Source: Thermus antranikianii DSM 12462 | GTDB taxonomy: Bacteria > Deinococcota > Deinococci > Deinococcales > Thermaceae | Assembly (NCBI RefSeq): GCF_000423905.1 | Contig: NZ_AUIW01000004.1 | Span: 124,001 to 188,000 of the forward strand | Length of the DNA stretch: 64,000 nucleotides | Direction: 5' to 3' | Part shown: positions 23,316-32,545 of the stretch, piece after piece | Position numbering within the stretch: the first letter of the stretch is position 1 | Layout of the letters: each line of letters starts with the position of its first letter | Notes under the pieces: model-generated | The model's input: the letters and a program-made list of their open reading frames with translations, nothing else | Databases searched by the model: none | What the model was told of the DNA's origin: nothing | Made by a program: the position numbers and the translations under genes

Positions 23316-23414
23316 GCTTTTAGCTTACCCGATTTCCTTGAAGTTTGGTTTCCTTACTCTCGGTGAGCCGAAGTCTGGGCTCGGCAATTTTTGGATAGGC
23401 CGACGGCCCCGGTT

Positions 23415-23681
23415 TCAACTGGAGGCCGGGGCTTGCTCGGCCTGGTACCTGGCCAGCCAGGCGTTGAGGGTGGCCAGGGAAACCCCGCGGATGGCCTCCA
23501 CCTTGCCGTTCCACTCCAGGACCACCCCGGCGGTGGGGCTTCCCGCCAGCGCACGGATCTTCCTGGCCGCTTCCGGGTCCTGCCGGGCGTTGACGAACTC
23601 AAAGGGCACGCCCTTTTGCGCCAGGAACATCTTCACGATCTCGCAAGGACCGCAGCCGGGGATGCCGTAAAGCCGCACCAT
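23415..23681 (-). CDS. Glutaredoxin/thioredoxin-fold small protein with CGPC
   Basis: 88 residues. MVRLYGIPGCGPCEIVKMFL carries the redox motif CGPC at residues 10-13 right after the first strand, then GVPFEFVNARQDPEAARKI and the cis-Pro-like region AGSPTAGVVLEWNGK, followed by the C-terminal helix. This is the glutaredoxin/NrdH layout. It begins near the palindrome ATGGTACCAT, whose TACCAT half lies 8 bases before ATG. It is sandwiched between two AbrB/PIN pairs on opposite strands. The natural partner is unknown; trxB lies 9 kb away. Confidence 0.82.
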   Translation of the reverse strand: MVRLYGIPGCGPCEIVKMFLAQKGVPFEFVNARQDPEAARKIRALAGSPTAGVVLEWNGKVEAIRGVSLATLNAWLARYQAEQAPASS

Positions 23682-23726
23682 ACCCCACCATGGTACCATG
23701 TGTTTCCTCGGTGGTACCATAAAAGC
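23682..23726. promoter_or_regulatory. Tandem TGGTACCAT operators in a divergent promoter
   Basis: CATGGTACCATG (23689-23700) is a perfect 12-bp palindrome. A second site, TGGTACCAT (23712-23720), repeats its core exactly 21 bp downstream, two helical turns. The second copy also provides the -10 box TACCAT, 6 bases before ATG of the plus-strand AbrB gene; the first copy provides TACCAT for the minus-strand redox gene. Placement fits an autoregulating AbrB-type antitoxin. Confidence 0.65.
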
Positions 23727-24002
23727 ATGGCGGAAGTGGCGGAAAAAACCCACTATGTGGTACAGGTGGGCTCTAAAGGCCGGGTGGTACTCCCGGCGGA
23801 GGTTCGGGAGGCCTTGGGGCTTAGGGAGGGGGATCGCCTCCTCTTGCGCTGGCGGGAGGAGGGCACCCTCGAGCTGGTGAGCTTCCGCGAGGTGGCCCAT
23901 CGGGCCAGGGGCCTTCTTAAAGGCCTGGCGCCAGGGGTGAGCCTGGTGGACGAACTCATCCGGGACCGGCGGGAGGAGGCCCGGAAGGAGGACCTGGAGT
24001 GA
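23727..24002 (+). CDS. AbrB/MazE-type antitoxin
   Basis: 91 residues. VVQVGSKGRVVLPAEVREAL followed by LREGDRLLLRWREEGTLEL is the AbrB swapped-hairpin domain. The C-terminal helix (LVDELIRDRREEARKEDLE) should bind the toxin. ATG 23727 is fixed by TACCAT and 6 bases. It overlaps the PIN gene by GTGA. Confidence 0.87.
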   Translation: MAEVAEKTHYVVQVGSKGRVVLPAEVREALGLREGDRLLLRWREEGTLELVSFREVAHRARGLLKGLAPGVSLVDELIRDRREEARKEDLE

Positions 24003-24397
24003 GGGCGGTGCTGGACGCCTCGGCCTTGTTGGCCCTGCTTTTGGATGAACCTGGAGCCCAGCGGGTGGAGGAGGCCCTAGCCGAAGGAGCGGCGATAAGC
24101 GCTGTCAACCTGGCGGAGGCGCTTTCCAAACTTGCCGAACGGGGAGGGGATCCCAAGGAAGTTCGGGATCGGCTGGAGCGGGAAGGGGTTCTGGGCCAGG
24201 TCCTGGTGGTCTTCCCTTTTACCGAGGAGGATGCCCTTTGGGTGGCCCGCCTCCGCCCTCTCACCCGCTCCTTGGGGCTTTCCCTGGGGGATAGGGCCTG
24301 CTTGGCCTTGGCCCAGCGCCTGAACCTGCCGGCCCTTACCGCCGATGCTTCCTGGGGTGCCCTTTCCCTGGGGGTGGCCGTGGAGGTGGTGCGCTAG
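23999..24397 (+). CDS. PIN-domain putative toxin (VapC)
   Basis: 132 residues. VLDASALLALLLDEPGAQRV opens the PIN domain; SAVNLAEALSKLAERG carries the second acidic residue, and SLGLSLGDRACLALAQRLNLPALTADASW the third and fourth (shown in parts: LSLGDRACLALA, LTADASW). All four acidic positions of a metal-dependent RNase are present. GTG start inside the antitoxin stop. Together with the preceding gene a complete VapBC-like module, divergent from the other one 0.4 kb away. Confidence 0.88.
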   Translation: MRAVLDASALLALLLDEPGAQRVEEALAEGAAISAVNLAEALSKLAERGGDPKEVRDRLEREGVLGQVLVVFPFTEEDALWVARLRPLTRSLGLSLGDRACLALAQRLNLPALTADASWGALSLGVAVEVVR

Positions 24398-26796: not shown

Positions 26797-27510
26797 ATGC
26801 CCCTCACCTGGCGCGACGTCCTGGATATCCTTCTCGTCGGCATCCTCTTTTATTACCTCTGGCGCCTCATGGCGGGAACCCGGGCCCTGAACCTGGTGCG
26901 GGGGGTCTTGGTCTACCTGGTGGTCTGGTTTCTGGCCAGCCTCCTCGGGCTTTCCACCCTTTCCTGGCTTTTGGGGAACGCCGCCACCCTAGGGGCCTTT
27001 GCCCTGATCGTGGTCTTCCAGCCGGAACTCAGAGGGCTTTTGGAGCGCATCGGCCGACCTCAGGGGCCGAGGGCTCCTTCCTTGGCCCTGGAGGAGCTCC
27101 TCTTGGGCCTGGCCCGGCTTTCCGAGAGGCGCTACGGGGCCATCCTGGCCCTGGAACGGCGCACCCCCCTGGGAGAGTATGCGGCCACGGGGGAGATCCT
27201 CGAGGCTAGGCTCTCCGCCCGGCTACTCCAGACGGTGTTCTACCCCGGCACGCCCTTGCACGACGGCGGGGCCATCCTGAGGGGGGATCGGCTTTTCGCC
27301 GCGGGGTGCGTCTTTCCCCTTTCCGAGGCCCGCATGGGCCTGGGTACCCGGCACCGGGCGGCCTTGGGGCTTTCCGAGGTTTCCGATGCCCTGGTGATCG
27401 TGGTGAGTGAGGAAACAGGGGCCATAAGGCTGGCGGAGGGGGGAAGGCTTTCCCCACCCATGAGCCTCGAGGCCCTGCGGGAGAAGCTCAAGGAGGTGCT
27501 CCGTGCGTGA
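26797..27510 (+). CDS. cdaA: Diadenylate cyclase CdaA/DacA (c-di-AMP synthase)
   Basis: 237 residues: three N-terminal membrane helices (about 10-70), a coiled segment, then the DAC domain. Catalytic motifs: YPGTPLHDGGAILRGDRLFAA and GLGTRHRAALGLSE (RHR). The usual DGA triplet reads DGG here, a mild change. It makes the second messenger c-di-AMP from two ATP. It overlaps the next gene, a CdaR/YbbR protein, by 8 bases; that pairing is the standard cdaA-cdaR operon of many bacteria. Confidence 0.94.
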   Translation: MPLTWRDVLDILLVGILFYYLWRLMAGTRALNLVRGVLVYLVVWFLASLLGLSTLSWLLGNAATLGAFALIVVFQPELRGLLERIGRPQGPRAPSLALEELLLGLARLSERRYGAILALERRTPLGEYAATGEILEARLSARLLQTVFYPGTPLHDGGAILRGDRLFAAGCVFPLSEARMGLGTRHRAALGLSEVSDALVIVVSEETGAIRLAEGGRLSPPMSLEALREKLKEVLRA

Positions 27511-28321
27511 CTGGGGGAGCTTCCTCATCGCCCTTTTGGCGGCTTTTGCCGTCTGGTACTCCTTAAAGGAAAGGGCCCCGGTGGTGGAGCGGGCGGTGAG
27601 CGTGCCCCTGCAGGTGGTGGGCCTTGGGGGGGAGCGCACCGCGGAGGGAGTGCCCAAGGAGGTCATGCTACGCCTGAGGGGGCCAGCTCCCCTGGTGGAG
27701 GGGGCCAGGCTTCCCGTGTCCGCCTACCTGGACCTTTCCGGGGCCGAGGGGGCCTTTTCCCGGGAGGTGCGGGTGGCCGTACCCCAGGGGGTGGAGGTTT
27801 TGGAGATCCGCCCTGCCCGGGTGGAGGGCCGGGTGGAGGGCCTCCTTACCCGCACCCTGCCGGTGGAGGTCCTTTCCCGAGGGGCGTGGGTGGAAACCAG
27901 GCCCGCCTTTGTGGAGGCTAAGGGGCCGAGAAGCCGGGTGGAGGAGGCGGTGGTGGCCTTGGGCCTGGACCTTGGAGGGGATACGGTGGCCCTTACCGCC
28001 TTTGGCCCCCAGGGGCCCCTGCCCGGGGTGGAGCTTCTTCCCGCCCAGGTGCAGGTGGTGGCGCGGGAGGCCCCCCTTTTCCGCAAGGAGGTCCCCTTGG
28101 TCCTGAGGCCCCCGGCGGGCTTAAGGGTGGTGGACTACGCTCCCAGGGCTGTGGAGGTGGTGGGACCCAAGGAGGCTTTGGCGGGCTTGACCCAGGTGGA
28201 GGCGAGGCCGGAAGGAGGCTTCCGCCCGGGAGAGGTTTCGGGCCCTTTTATCCTTGATCTACCTCCCGGGGTGAGGGTCTTAGGGGAGGTTTTGGGTAGG
28301 GTGCGGCTTGCGCTAGAATAG
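27503..28321 (+). CDS. cdaR: CdaR/YbbR-domain regulator of diadenylate cyclase
   Basis: 272 residues: one N-terminal membrane anchor (SFLIALLAAFAVWYSL) and about three YbbR repeats outside (for example LQVVGLGGERTAEGVPKEV and LPVEVLSRGAWVETRP). In Firmicutes CdaR binds CdaA across the membrane and tunes its activity. GTG 27503 lies inside cdaA. The final codons (CTAGAATAG) double as the -10 box of def. Confidence 0.87.
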   Translation: MRDWGSFLIALLAAFAVWYSLKERAPVVERAVSVPLQVVGLGGERTAEGVPKEVMLRLRGPAPLVEGARLPVSAYLDLSGAEGAFSREVRVAVPQGVEVLEIRPARVEGRVEGLLTRTLPVEVLSRGAWVETRPAFVEAKGPRSRVEEAVVALGLDLGGDTVALTAFGPQGPLPGVELLPAQVQVVAREAPLFRKEVPLVLRPPAGLRVVDYAPRAVEVVGPKEALAGLTQVEARPEGGFRPGEVSGPFILDLPPGVRVLGEVLGRVRLALE

Positions 28322-28326
28322 TTGGG

Positions 28327-28902
28327 ATGATTTACCCCATACGCCTTTACGGGGACCCGGTGCTCCGCAAGCGGGCGCGGCCTGTCCAGGACTTTAGGGG
28401 CCTCAAGAAGCTTGCCGAGGACATGCTGGAGACCATGTTTGAGGCCCGGGGAGTGGGCCTGGCCGCACCCCAGATTGGGCTTTCCCAGCGCTTCTTTGTG
28501 GCGGTGGAGTACGCCGATGAGCCCGAGGGGGAGGAGAGGCCCCTCCGCGACCTGGTGCGCCGGATTTACGTGGTGGCCAACCCGGTGATCACCCACCGGG
28601 AGGGGGAGGTGGAGGGGCTGGAAGGGTGCCTCTCCCTCCCTGGCCTTTACGCTGAGGAGGTACCCCGGGCGGAGCGGATCCGGGTGGAATACCAGGACGA
28701 GGAGGGAAGGCCCCGCGCCCTGGAGCTGGAGGGGTATATGGCCAGGGTCTTCCAGCACGAGATTGACCACCTGGACGGTATCCTCTTCTTCGAACGCCTG
28801 CCCAAGGCCAAGCGGGAAGCCTTCCTGGAGGAAAACCGGGCGGAGCTGGCCCGGATGCAGAAGGAGGCCAGGGCGCTTTTGAAGGAGCTTTCCCAGGGAT
28901 GA
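28327..28902 (+). CDS. def: Peptide deformylase
   Basis: 191 residues. All three motifs are intact: GVGLAAPQIGL, EGCLSLPGLY with the metal cysteine, and QHEIDHLDGILF with the two metal histidines and the catalytic Glu. It removes formyl from new N-termini. The start is 7 bases after TAGAAT, which is formed from the end of cdaR. It overlaps fmt by ATGA: the enzymes that add and remove the formyl group are co-made. Confidence 0.96.
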   Translation: MIYPIRLYGDPVLRKRARPVQDFRGLKKLAEDMLETMFEARGVGLAAPQIGLSQRFFVAVEYADEPEGEERPLRDLVRRIYVVANPVITHREGEVEGLEGCLSLPGLYAEEVPRAERIRVEYQDEEGRPRALELEGYMARVFQHEIDHLDGILFFERLPKAKREAFLEENRAELARMQKEARALLKELSQG

Positions 28903-29813
28903 GGGTGGCCTTCTTCGGCACGCCTGCCTGGGCGGTGCCGGTATTGGATGCCCTAAACCGCCGCCACCAGGTGGTCCTGGTGGTCACCCAGCCGGATAAG
29001 CCCAAGGGCCGGGGCCTCAAGCCCGCTCCCAGTCCGGTGGCGGAGTACGCCTTGGCCCACGGGCTTCCCCTTTTGAAGCCCGAACGCCTTAAGGGGAACC
29101 GGGAGTTTCTGGAGGCCTTTAAGGCCGTGGCCCCGGAGGTGGCGGTAACCGCCGCTTACGGCAAGATCCTTCCCAAGGAGGTCCTCGAGGTTCCCCCCTG
29201 GGGGTTCTTGAACCTCCATCCCTCCCTTCTTCCCAAGTACCGCGGCCCGGCCCCGGTGCCCTGGGCCCTCATCCACGGGGAAAGGGAGACCGGGGTGGCC
29301 ATCATGAAGACCGAGGAGGGCCTGGACACCGGCCCCCTTTACGCCCTTTGGCGTACGGAGATAGGCCCCGAGGAGGATGCGGTGGCCCTTTCCGAGCGCC
29401 TTAGGGACAAGGGCATCGAGCTTCTCCTTTGGGTCTTGGAAAACCTTCCCCACCTCACCCCCGCGCCCCAGGAGGGCGAGCCCTCCTATGCCCCTCTCCT
29501 TACCAAGGAGGAGGGGCGTATCCGCTTTGCGGATAGCGCCCAGGCCATCTACAACCGCCACCGGGGGGTGCAGCCCTGGCCGGGAAGCTACTTCTTCCAC
29601 GGGGGCAGGCGGGTGAAGGTCCTAAAGATGCGCCCCGAGCCGGGGGCGGGGGAGCCTGGGGTGGTGCTGGGAGTAGACCGGGAAGGGGTCTTGGTGGGTA
29701 CCGGGGAGGGAGCCATCCGGCTTTTGGAGGTCCAGCCCGAGGGAAAGCGCCCCATGCCTGCGGCCGACTGGGCGCGGGGGTATGGGGTGGGGCCGGGTAC
29801 CCGCTTGGAATGA
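28899..29813 (+). CDS. fmt: Methionyl-tRNA formyltransferase
   Basis: 304 residues. RVAFFGTPAWAVPVLDAL opens the formyl-folate fold; VTAAYGKILPKEVL, GFLNLHPSLLPKYRGPAPVPWALIHG (key residues HPSLLP) and TGVAIMKTEEGLDTGP hold the catalytic Asn-His-Asp set. The C-terminal OB-fold domain (WPGSYFFHGGRRVKVLKM) binds tRNA. Full length; followed by a hairpin terminator. Confidence 0.96.
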   Translation: MRVAFFGTPAWAVPVLDALNRRHQVVLVVTQPDKPKGRGLKPAPSPVAEYALAHGLPLLKPERLKGNREFLEAFKAVAPEVAVTAAYGKILPKEVLEVPPWGFLNLHPSLLPKYRGPAPVPWALIHGERETGVAIMKTEEGLDTGPLYALWRTEIGPEEDAVALSERLRDKGIELLLWVLENLPHLTPAPQEGEPSYAPLLTKEEGRIRFADSAQAIYNRHRGVQPWPGSYFFHGGRRVKVLKMRPEPGAGEPGVVLGVDREGVLVGTGEGAIRLLEVQPEGKRPMPAADWARGYGVGPGTRLE

Positions 29814-29849: not shown

Positions 29850-31607
29850 TTAAAACTCCTCGTCCCACTCCACGATGGTTTCGCTGGTGAGGGTGGTGGC
29901 GGATGGCCTTTGGTCTTGGGTGGCGGTTACCTCCCGCCCCCGCTCCCTGAGGAGGCCGAACTGGGCGGCGATGCCCCTGAGCCCGGCCGCGCTGAAGGCC
30001 ACCACCAGGAAGATGGCGCTCCCCCAGGCCAGGTAGGGCACCAGGCCTTGGCCGATGGAGAGGTTGCTCAGGAAGGCCAGGAAGGGCGCACCCCCATAAT
30101 CGGCCATGATGGCGCCGAAGTAGGAGAGCCCCTCCACCACGATGGGCAGGAAGAGGAAGAGAAAGGCCAGGGCCAGCAGGTTCCAGTAGACGTTTCGCCC
30201 CCCGAAGGTGAGGCGGATCAGGTAGAGGGGAAAGAGGCTTAAGGCCGCGGCCAGGAGAAAGAGGACGGCCCGGGGGATGCCTGCGCTCAGGGTGAGCCAG
30301 AGCTTGAAGGAAAGCCAGGGGGTGGAGGCGGGGCCTTGGGCGAACTGCCTCTTTAGTTCCTCGAGGCCTTCGTATACGGCGAACACATCCAGGGTGCGAA
30401 GGCCCGTTGCCGTGGAGAGGTGGATTAGGCTGGAGCTTACCTGCTGGGTAAGCTCGGGATTGATCAAGGAGAACAGGGGTTCCAGCTGCACCTGAAACCG
30501 CCAGAGCGTCCTTTGCAGGTGCTCCCTGGCCAGGTCGGGATTGGCCCTGCCCAGGGCGTTGGCGGCAAGCCCCACCTCCAACAAGACCTGGTCTACGGCG
30601 TCCAGGAGCTCAAAGTTGTAGTTGTATCCCAGGTCATAGGCTTGCTGGCGGAACCGCCTGGCGGTTTCGGGGTCCATCCAAGGGGGCGTGCGGAACGTTT
30701 CCACCGTGGCCACCGCGTCCAGAGAAGGAGAGGATGCGGGGGAGGCTTGGGGAGCAGGGGAAATGGGAGGGGAAGCGGAAGGCGAAGGGATAGGGGGAGA
30801 GGGCGGGGAAGCAGCCGAAGGCGTGGAGGAGGGTTTCCCCGCAGAGGGGCCGGGGGAGGACTGGGCCGGAGCGGGGGAAGGTGGGGGGGTAGCCGAAGGG
30901 GAAGGCGCCGCCTGGGTTTGCAAATGCCTTCGCCAAGCCAGGGCCCTTTCCTGCAAACCCCTTACCGAGGATCGGAAGTCCTCCCCACCGGAAACCTGGC
31001 CTATGGCCTGGATGAAGTCCTGGGCTTTAAGGGTGCTTTGGGGGCTATCCTGGATTACCAGGAAGCGGGCGTAGGCCCGGGCCAAGGCCAGGTAGGCCTG
31101 GGGGCGGGAGCCGGCGGAAAGAGCCTGGCCCAGGTCCTCGGCCATGAGTTGCAGGTAGCCGGCTTCCAGCCTGCGCCGGGCTTCCTCGGGAGCCAGGCTT
31201 TCCGCCCCCTGGGCCACGGGCTGGGATAAACCGGTGGCCCGGACCAGGCGGGTGAGGTAAAGGGCTTTTTGGCCAGGGGGGGCCTGGAAGAAACCATCGT
31301 AAAGCGCCTTGCCCAGCAGGTGGCGCACCAGGAGGAGGCGGGCCTCGAGGTCCACCCGGCTTTGCCTAAGCACCGCCTGCCGGGCGTCCTGCAGGTGCAG
31401 CAGAGTGGCGTCGCGCAACACAGGAGGAAGCCCGTCGCTTTCCTGTCGCAGAAGGCTTTGCGCCCGGTCCAGGGCGGAAAGGGCCTGGGTGGGGTTTTCC
31501 AGGCGCACCTGCCTTAGGGCTTCCTCCAGGCGGTCGTAGACCTGGGGCAGGGGGGCGGCCAAGGCCAGAAGGCCGAGGAATGGGGCTAGGGCAAACCACC
31601 GTTTCAT
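29850..31607 (-). CDS. Large envelope protein with Ser/Pro-rich linker and C-terminal membrane helices, unknown
   Basis: 585 residues. A signal peptide (FALAPFLGLLALAAP), a helical domain (about 20-245), a roughly 70-residue linker made almost only of Ser, Pro and Ala (about 250-320), a second helical domain (about 330-450; NYNFELLDAVDQVLLEVGL), then four hydrophobic segments (LFLLAAALSLFPLYLIRL, LLALAFLFLFLPIVVEGLSY, and two more) and an acidic tail ending VEWDEEF. No enzyme motif seen. ATG 31607 overlaps the stop of the roadblock-like gene, so they form one unit. The shape suggests a scaffold spanning envelope layers. Confidence 0.7.
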   Translation of the reverse strand: MKRWFALAPFLGLLALAAPLPQVYDRLEEALRQVRLENPTQALSALDRAQSLLRQESDGLPPVLRDATLLHLQDARQAVLRQSRVDLEARLLLVRHLLGKALYDGFFQAPPGQKALYLTRLVRATGLSQPVAQGAESLAPEEARRRLEAGYLQLMAEDLGQALSAGSRPQAYLALARAYARFLVIQDSPQSTLKAQDFIQAIGQVSGGEDFRSSVRGLQERALAWRRHLQTQAAPSPSATPPPSPAPAQSSPGPSAGKPSSTPSAASPPSPPIPSPSASPPISPAPQASPASSPSLDAVATVETFRTPPWMDPETARRFRQQAYDLGYNYNFELLDAVDQVLLEVGLAANALGRANPDLAREHLQRTLWRFQVQLEPLFSLINPELTQQVSSSLIHLSTATGLRTLDVFAVYEGLEELKRQFAQGPASTPWLSFKLWLTLSAGIPRAVLFLLAAALSLFPLYLIRLTFGGRNVYWNLLALAFLFLFLPIVVEGLSYFGAIMADYGGAPFLAFLSNLSIGQGLVPYLAWGSAIFLVVAFSAAGLRGIAAQFGLLRERGREVTATQDQRPSATTLTSETIVEWDEEF

Positions 31608-32215
31608 CCGTTGACCTCCGCTAGGGATATGAGCCGCCTCAAGGCGTGAAGGAGGCGGCCGATATTGGCTTCCTTTCTGGCGAGAAGGCCGATGTATCCC
31701 TGGGCCAGGGGTCTTAAGGCCACGATTTCCCTTTCTAGGATGGCATAGAAGATTCCGTAACCCTGGCGCTTGAGGAGGGGATAGGCCAGGTCCAAGGGGG
31801 CAGGCTCCCCGGAAAAAAGCTCCTCCTTGCCGTTTGTGCCTGCCACTACCACCCCCGTCACCCCCTCCAGGCGGGCGAGCCTCTTGGCCAAGTGCTGGCG
31901 GGCCAAGGGATCCTCGAGGTCCACAGCCTCCACGGGTAGCCCTTCTTCCTCGGTTTCGGAGGCCTCGGCTTCCGCCACCTGGGAAGCGGCGAGCTCCCTC
32001 CATTCCCGGGCCAGGGCCTTAAGCTCGGGGGGCATTTCCCGGAAGGGCAGGAGGCGGCGGAGCTCAGGCCAGAGGATTTCCTCTAGAAGGTGCGCCCACT
32101 CCCCTGGCGAGGTGGGCCTTCTCTGGGCCAAGGCCCGCCTCAGCAGGTTCTCCGCAGCCCGGGGGGAAACATACCGGCTTAGAACCTCCAAAAGGCTTTC
32201 CTCGTTCGCCGCCAT
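31604..32215 (-). CDS. Protein with C-terminal Roadblock/LC7-like domain
   Basis: 203 residues. The N-terminal half is helical (SRYVSPRAAENLLRRALAQ), then an acidic linker (VAEAEASETEEEGLP). The last 95 residues follow the Roadblock/LC7 pattern: LARLEGVTGVVVAGTNGKEEL, LAYPLLKRQ, REIVALRPLAQGYIGLLARKEANIGRLLHALRRL (split here at IGLLARKEAN). Roadblock proteins such as MglB control small GTPases. No GTPase gene is adjacent. ATG 32215 lacks a clear ribosome site; upstream GTG 32224 is possible. TACACT at 32258-32253 is the nearest -10 box. Confidence 0.6.
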   Translation of the reverse strand: MAANEESLLEVLSRYVSPRAAENLLRRALAQRRPTSPGEWAHLLEEILWPELRRLLPFREMPPELKALAREWRELAASQVAEAEASETEEEGLPVEAVDLEDPLARQHLAKRLARLEGVTGVVVAGTNGKEELFSGEPAPLDLAYPLLKRQGYGIFYAILEREIVALRPLAQGYIGLLARKEANIGRLLHALRRLISLAEVNG

Positions 32216-32293: not shown

Positions 32294-32367
32294 TGGGGTG
32301 TCGTCTAACGGCAGGACAGCGGACTCTGGATCCGCCGGTCGTGGTTCGAGTCCACGCACCCCAGCCA
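32294..32367 (+). tRNA. tRNA-Gln (anticodon CTG)
   Basis: 74 bases with encoded CCA. Acceptor TGGGGTG pairs with CACCCCA; U1-A72 is typical of bacterial tRNA-Gln. Anticodon arm GCGGA, loop CTCTGGA, TCCGC gives CUG. T-arm GTGG-TTCGAGT-CCAC. It reads CAG codons. Confidence 0.96.
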
Positions 32368-32373
32368 AAACCT

Positions 32374-32448
32374 GGCCCCATCGACTAGTGGTTAGGTCAC
32401 CGCCCTTTCAAGGCGGCGGCGGGGGTTCGAGTCCCCCTGGGGTCACCA
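32374..32448 (+). tRNA. tRNA-Glu (anticodon TTC)
   Basis: 75 bases with encoded CCA, 6 bases after tRNA-Gln. Acceptor GGCCCCA with TGGGGTC. Anticodon arm CCGCC, loop CTTTCAA, GGCGG gives UUC. T-arm GGGGG-TTCGAGT-CCCCC. It reads GAA (and GAG by wobble). Confidence 0.96.
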
Positions 32449-32469
32449 GAAGCAGTCCGAGCCGCGCAC

Positions 32470-32545
32470 GGCCCCATCGTCTAGAGGCCTAGGACACGGC
32501 CCTCTCAAGGCCGAGACGGGGGTTCGAATCCCCCTGGGGTCACCA
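32470..32545 (+). tRNA. tRNA-Glu (anticodon CTC)
   Basis: 76 bases with encoded CCA. Acceptor GGCCCCA with TGGGGTC. Anticodon arm CGGCC, loop CTCTCAA, GGCCG gives CUC. T-arm GGGGG-TTCGAAT-CCCCC. It is close in sequence to the neighbouring Glu tRNA, suggesting local duplication and anticodon change. It reads GAG, the preferred Glu codon here. Confidence 0.96.

Follow-up and report, generated by a model that had tools for sequence, protein, structure and literature searches.

A divergent Roadblock protein, its membrane partner and a third Roadblock-like protein in Thermus may be linked to the MglA polarity switch

Membrane-anchored Roadblock platforms are best known from eukaryotic growth signalling, and in Ragulator the Roadblock domains are held on the membrane by one anchoring subunit. 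The polar landmark proteins FimV and HubP consist of a periplasmic part, a membrane span and an acidic cytoplasmic part, an arrangement also seen in the membrane protein described here. MglB is a single Roadblock domain of about 129–179 aa according to a passage of PMC4316618, which also notes that orphan MglB-type genes are many and that none had been characterised at the date of that paper. The same source describes the Streptomyces conservons (CvnA–D), in which a Roadblock protein and an MglA-type GTPase accompany a membrane protein whose C-terminal motif is conserved. In Myxococcus, the Glu-rich C-terminus of RomR, with its crucial tryptophan, engages the Roadblock dimer of MglC at a positive cleft, as stated in passages of PMC12719032 and PMC10329633. 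For Thermus thermophilus, passages of PMC7519303, PMC12024867 and PMC12393216, citing Salzer 2015, report that MglA is needed for pili to occur at only one pole, by a mechanism given as unknown; how the organism confines its pili to one pole is likewise described as unknown in PMC7519303 and PMC12393216, and a passage of PMC12024867 states that it lacks Pil-Chp genes.

The locus analysed here lies in a stretch of 64,000 nucleotides from Thermus antranikianii DSM 12462 (NZ_AUIW01000004.1, positions 124,001 to 188,000), referred to below as the window, and its features are collected in Table 1. A preliminary description of the locus had proposed an ATGA-coupled two-gene unit; the overlap is present, and both frames, here called A and B, were confirmed as genuine minus-strand reading frames, since they recur widely in relatives. 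The pair is flanked on the B side by a convergent gene at 28899–29813, which we take to be fmt, and on the other side by three plus-strand tRNA genes (32294–32545); a search for a promoter-like site ahead of A on the minus strand revealed none. Two other overlapping gene pairs lie nearby in the window, one at 26797–28321, which we take to resemble a diadenylate cyclase (CdaA) with its YbbR-type partner, and one at 23391–24397, presumably an AbrB-like and a PIN-like gene forming a likely toxin–antitoxin unit.

Table 1. Features of the A–B locus, with positions in the window and residue numbers of the encoded proteins
Feature	Residues	Position	Strand	Basis or remark
Gene A		31604-32215	minus	203 aa; helical N-domain and Roadblock domain
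A, N-domain	2-88	31952-32212	minus	four-helix (AlphaFold); common to gene C
A, Roadblock/LC7-type domain	96-203	31607-31930	minus	AlphaFold fold, Foldseek, VIA, PDB profile match
ATGA stop/start overlap, A with B		31604-31607	minus	sequence; kept in most relatives
Gene B		29850-31607	minus	585 aa; membrane protein
B, signal peptide	1-18	31554-31607	minus	sequence; hydropathy segment 5-24
B, periplasmic domain 1, helical	20-233	30909-31550	minus	AlphaFold
B, Ser/Pro/Ala linker, disordered	229-312	30672-30923	minus	AlphaFold and composition
B, periplasmic domain 2, helical	313-439	30291-30671	minus	AlphaFold; two unlike types in Thermus
B, three membrane helices	444-549	29961-30278	minus	AlphaFold, hydropathy, alignment; FGGxNxYW and GxRGIxxQFGL conserved
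B, acidic tail, disordered, cytoplasmic	550-585	29853-29960	minus	AlphaFold, hydropathy
B, C-terminal motif EWDEEF	580-585	29853-29870	minus	conservation among relatives

The first protein had been described as Roadblock/LC7-like, and structure prediction bears this out. In the AlphaFold model of A (built on 40 relatives; mean pLDDT 83.6), residues 96–203 form an alpha-beta-beta-alpha-beta-beta-beta-alpha fold that agrees with solved Roadblock structures in both Foldseek and VIA comparisons. The top Foldseek matches in the PDB were all Roadblock proteins (7yh1 with E 1.9e-4; 11 matches with E ≤ 0.001), with Ragulator subunits and the Thermus MglB structures 1j3w and 3t1r among them. The VIA comparison, which covers residues 101–203, yielded a Z of 11.4 for an archaeal Roadblock protein, 10.5 for MglC (7ct3) and 9.4–10.5 for MglB chains, each over about 100 residues, with values of about 10–11 for MglB, MglC and Ragulator taken together; for MglB 1j3w and MglC 7ct3 the scores were 10.1 and 10.5, respectively (about 100 residues; rmsd 3.1 Å).

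Searched as a sequence profile, the same domain matched a Roadblock chain in the PDB (7f8m, E 0.0012); 7f8f and CvnB5 scored more weakly in that search, with one unrelated designed protein ranked in between. A had no family match in Pfam or NCBIfam, where the cut-off of PF03259 (Robl_LC7) was not reached, and a search of the window's genome with Robl_LC7 returned four other loci, A not being one of them. Scans of A and B against Pfam, NCBIfam and PADLOC gave nothing better than chance. In distant relatives A also occurs in longer versions (330–463 aa), and these came closer to Robl_LC7, with E 0.0026–0.014 in four of the six scanned, under the curated cut-off. By its predicted fold A is thus a Roadblock protein, and by sequence it is a divergent branch. 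Ahead of this domain, the model places helices at residues 2–12, 18–31, 37–55 and 63–88, a helical N-domain (2–88) that, like gene C and the invariant C-terminal motif of B discussed below, goes beyond the preliminary description. A second match of P0001 in genome G020 (L075) was discarded as a chance antisense frame.

The second protein had been described as carrying a signal peptide, an almost pure Ser/Pro/Ala linker, four terminal membrane helices and an acidic tail. The signal peptide, linker and tail are all present, but the membrane helices number three rather than four, both by hydropathy (segments 436–470, 472–502 and 518–553, besides the signal peptide) and in the AlphaFold model (mean pLDDT 83.0; helices 444–468, 473–504 and 522–549), which in addition contains a nine-residue half helix at 508–516. 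Serine, proline, alanine or threonine make up 64 of the 84 linker residues, and the disordered stretch in the model runs from about 236 to 300. Arginines are present in the loop between the first and second membrane helices and after the third, and there are none in the loop between the second and third; with a cleaved signal peptide and these positive-inside loops, the acidic tail should therefore be cytoplasmic.

Among 25 aligned relatives of B, invariant residues fall in FGGxNxYW and GxRGIxxQFGL of the membrane module, and all 25 proteins end in EWDEEF. In a wider set of complete C-termini, 42 of 71 end in exactly EWDEEF, and the pattern [EDQN]W[DE][DE][DE] is found within the last eight residues of every one (71/71). 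The codon pattern for an EWDEEF ending occurs a single time in the window's genome, within B. A C-terminal motif preserved to this degree most probably reflects a cytoplasmic binding partner. Between the window's B and that of T. scotoductus (L006), identity is 90% in domain 1 and 24% in domain 2, while domain 2 is 61% and 59% identical to those of T. igniterrae and T. brockianus, respectively. The occurrence of two unlike versions of domain 2 within Thermus suggests, at the level of sequence, a domain exchange, perhaps caused by a variable periplasmic partner. Several candidate matches of B were set aside, namely a YfdX match under the cut-off (E 0.015), PDB profile matches that were mainly due to chance and arose from the linker or a helix, and fold matches of the model of B, which consisted only of four-helix bundles (cytochrome b562-type fusion partners), were taken to reflect a common arrangement and exclude no family. 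A tblastn search of B against plasmids gave no match.

Co-occurrence of the two genes in relatives had been set as a test of the unit, and the tandem proved highly conserved. A single-sequence search over 61 genomes, among them that of the window, detected A in 50, and the membrane module of B was present in 99 of the 111 genomes examined from the phylum. Both genes fell on one stretch of sequence in 81 genomes, and in every one of these A lay upstream of B on the same strand; the overlap was exactly 4 bases in 66. The spacing in most of the others was −1 to +21, with 76 bases in G033, and the large apparent gaps in G015, G021 and G055 are due to a split B frame. Split frames of B, from a sequencing error or a real frameshift, were seen in G022, G015, G021 and G055 (L039/L015, L045, L051/L014 and L127).

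A third gene, C, encodes an A-like N-domain, a long middle part resembling a coiled coil, and a Roadblock-like C-terminus. In profile-to-profile comparison the start of C matched the N-domain of A (E 8e-6, probability 84), and its last 100 residues matched the Roadblock part of A (E 5e-5, probability 67). The C protein of G106 reached E 3.2e-4 against Robl_LC7, under the curated cut-off, and eight C proteins scanned whole against Pfam gave no Robl_LC7 match, so the Roadblock assignment is less certain for the end of C than for A. C is 776 aa long in the window's genome and up to about 1060 aa among the C proteins read. Its inner stretches LYFEWPEVQKLR and GGPKxRRLE...LAxAExERAR are strongly conserved (e.g. 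L139:153-902 and L162:3740-6067).

C is present in 100 of 111 genomes, a count that leaves out three of the 103 genomes in the A4 profile tally (G049, G087 and G094), where only the N-domain of A was matched. In 46 of the 97 genomes with both genes it lies directly behind B, within 1.5 kb. This arrangement varies with the family (f3, 29/29; f2, 3/3; f5, 3/4; f4, 7/14), being seen in 4 of 20 genomes of the window's family outside its genus and in none of the 27 of the genus itself. The order A–B–C is probably ancestral, having since been broken up in Thermus. In the window's genome C lies upstream of a gene that appears to be relA-like; the neighbours of C other than B, presumably relA-like and tsaE-like genes, differ among groups. 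A, B and C form a real, conserved and apparently undescribed three-gene set, as a literature search at the level of titles and abstracts found no description of any of them.

The link to MglA had been guessed in the preliminary description from the Roadblock likeness, and it was assessed here through the distribution of the genes. The window's genome carries what we take, by likeness, to be an mglA–mglB pair on contig C2, with A–B on C4 and C on C33. A–B is accordingly not near an MglA-type GTPase gene, and the Roadblock gene adjoining mglA on C2 is another one, a standard MglB. Tandem short Roadblock-type genes, apart from mglB, were also noted in this genome beside a presumably recR-like gene (L002, 760–1851). 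Pfam PF00025 fails on Thermus MglA, and the MglA protein itself was therefore used as query; it was detected in 99 of 111 genomes, a frequency so high that its mere presence says little. Six of the 111 genomes (G046, G057, G107, G108, G103 and G110; completeness 89–98%) are without A, B and C, and MglA is missing from all six, the other six MglA-negative genomes being assemblies only 58–85% complete. In these six, the A4 profile, which also detects the N-domain of A in many relatives, found nothing, B was not found even at E 10, and the single-sequence search, which included G046 and G057, found no A in either. Pfam Roadblock matches were likewise absent from five of the six, with one weak match in G103, while 11 of 12 comparison genomes had them. 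Two further genomes count against the link: in G042, B is reduced to a trace (E 0.21) just ahead of C, and G109 has MglA with only a divergent B and no Pfam Roadblock match.

The chance that six random genomes would all fall among the 12 MglA-negatives is 4e-7, a figure which is not a real probability, as the genomes are related. In a RelA tree (from which G041 and G037, with split matches, and G106, with no RelA match, are omitted) the six form two separate clades, one of four genomes and one of two. Only two independent losses therefore stand behind the MglA link, and gene loss may have been extensive in both clades. The clade of four retains the type IV pilus ATPases (PF00437), which are missing from the clade of two, and the PilM match is strong in G046, G057 and G108 and weak in the other three. 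With PF00437 in four of the six and strong PilM in three, the losses follow MglA better than they follow the pilus machine; judged from these searches, the set is lost along with MglA in a clade that retains much of its pilus machine.

The predicted fold of A, the A–B tandem, the architecture common to A and C, the conserved tail of B and the absence shared with MglA together form the evidence for a role of A, B and C in MglA polarity, which is moderately supported. The specific reading we favour, as a working proposal whose chances we put slightly short of even, is that, in the Thermus phylum, the three proteins make up a single Roadblock platform bound to the membrane and acting together with the MglA/MglB switch. 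A and C would pair via their Roadblock domains, and the acidic, tryptophan-containing cytoplasmic tail of B would dock on the positive side of a Roadblock dimer of A and/or C, thereby tethering them to the membrane. The long coiled-coil-like C and the N-domains common to A and C could then recruit further partners, MglA or MglB included, and the outcome would be that a cell pole is marked or held, leading to the use of type IV pili at one pole.

A different possibility, which we regard as somewhat unlikely, is that the three proteins build a scaffold of the envelope or of cell division, connecting the inner membrane with something in the periplasm and not acting via MglA, the common loss being parallel and not causal. 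The large helical periplasmic domains and long spacer of B, needless for MglA, fit such a scaffold, as do the unlinked positions of the A–B–C genes and mglA and the retention of the set in nearly all genomes of the phylum, as would be expected of an envelope part. It is harder to reconcile with the lack of MglA in all six genomes without the set, four of which retain pilus ATPases, and with the fact that Roadblock domains are mostly GTPase partners, as stated in a passage of PMC4316618. The VIA Z scores, which place the Roadblock fold of A close to those of MglB and MglC, together with the absence shared with MglA, could also be read to mean that A, C or both are additional proteins of the MglB kind acting directly on the MglA GTPase, in hydrolysis or exchange, with B as the membrane anchor. 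A standard MglB already adjoins mglA in the window's genome, however, and A and C are uncoupled from mglA and bear extra domains. Moreover, other Roadblock proteins such as MglC bind but are not known to have GTPase-activating or exchange activity, which counts against a direct action of this kind, and we consider it quite improbable. Finally, A, B and C might themselves be components of the type IV pilus machine, or of DNA uptake, given that PF00437 ATPases are also missing from two of the six genomes that lack the set. The other four keep PF00437, three of them with strong PilM, and the pilus machine can thus exist without the set, making this the sort of explanation we would be surprised to see borne out.

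Within the platform proposal, A, B and C may supply the membrane component still missing from the MglA polarity switch. A bolder form of it, which is speculative and in our estimation unlikely, would make the set a bacterial Ragulator counterpart: the trans-envelope B, via its invariant acidic-tryptophan tag, would hold a Roadblock dimer, one subunit short and the other very long, thereby tying MglA to a periplasmic cue, and the conserved [ED]WxE inside C (within LYFEWPEVQKLR) may compete with the [ED]WDEE tail of B for one pocket, as a built-in switch. If the platform is real, the one-pole pilus question in T. thermophilus gains concrete genes, and bacteria too would use a membrane-anchored Roadblock platform.

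Compared with the described systems, the set shares single features with several of them. The C-terminal domain of A has a predicted fold like those of T. thermophilus MglB (1j3w) and M. xanthus MglC (7ct3), but A and C add a helical N-domain and C a very long middle, the genes are not beside mglA, they are tied to a membrane protein, and A is without a Pfam family. Neither size nor architecture matches MglB, with A being 203 aa long including the extra N-domain (330–463 aa in some relatives) and C 776 aa. The likeness to FimV and HubP is one of layout; one relative of B matches at chance level (E 0.021), and neither LysM, TPR nor a FimV C-terminal domain was seen in B with Pfam and NCBIfam. 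Conservons differ in that CvnA, according to passages of PMC4316618, is a histidine kinase and its motif is LPxR, whereas Pfam and NCBIfam scans of B revealed no kinase domain and its motif is another one. The best fold matches of A include Roadblock chains of LAMTOR, and the comparison with Ragulator is one of arrangement; B differs from the Ragulator anchor in its three membrane spans and its periplasmic domains. Finally, RomR and MglC of M. xanthus, as described in part of PMC12719032, offer the same combination of an acidic C-terminal stretch carrying a key tryptophan and a Roadblock dimer; RomR is a soluble receiver-domain protein with a helical C-terminus, whereas B is a membrane protein whose last residues are predicted to be disordered, and the likeness drawn here is one of principle.
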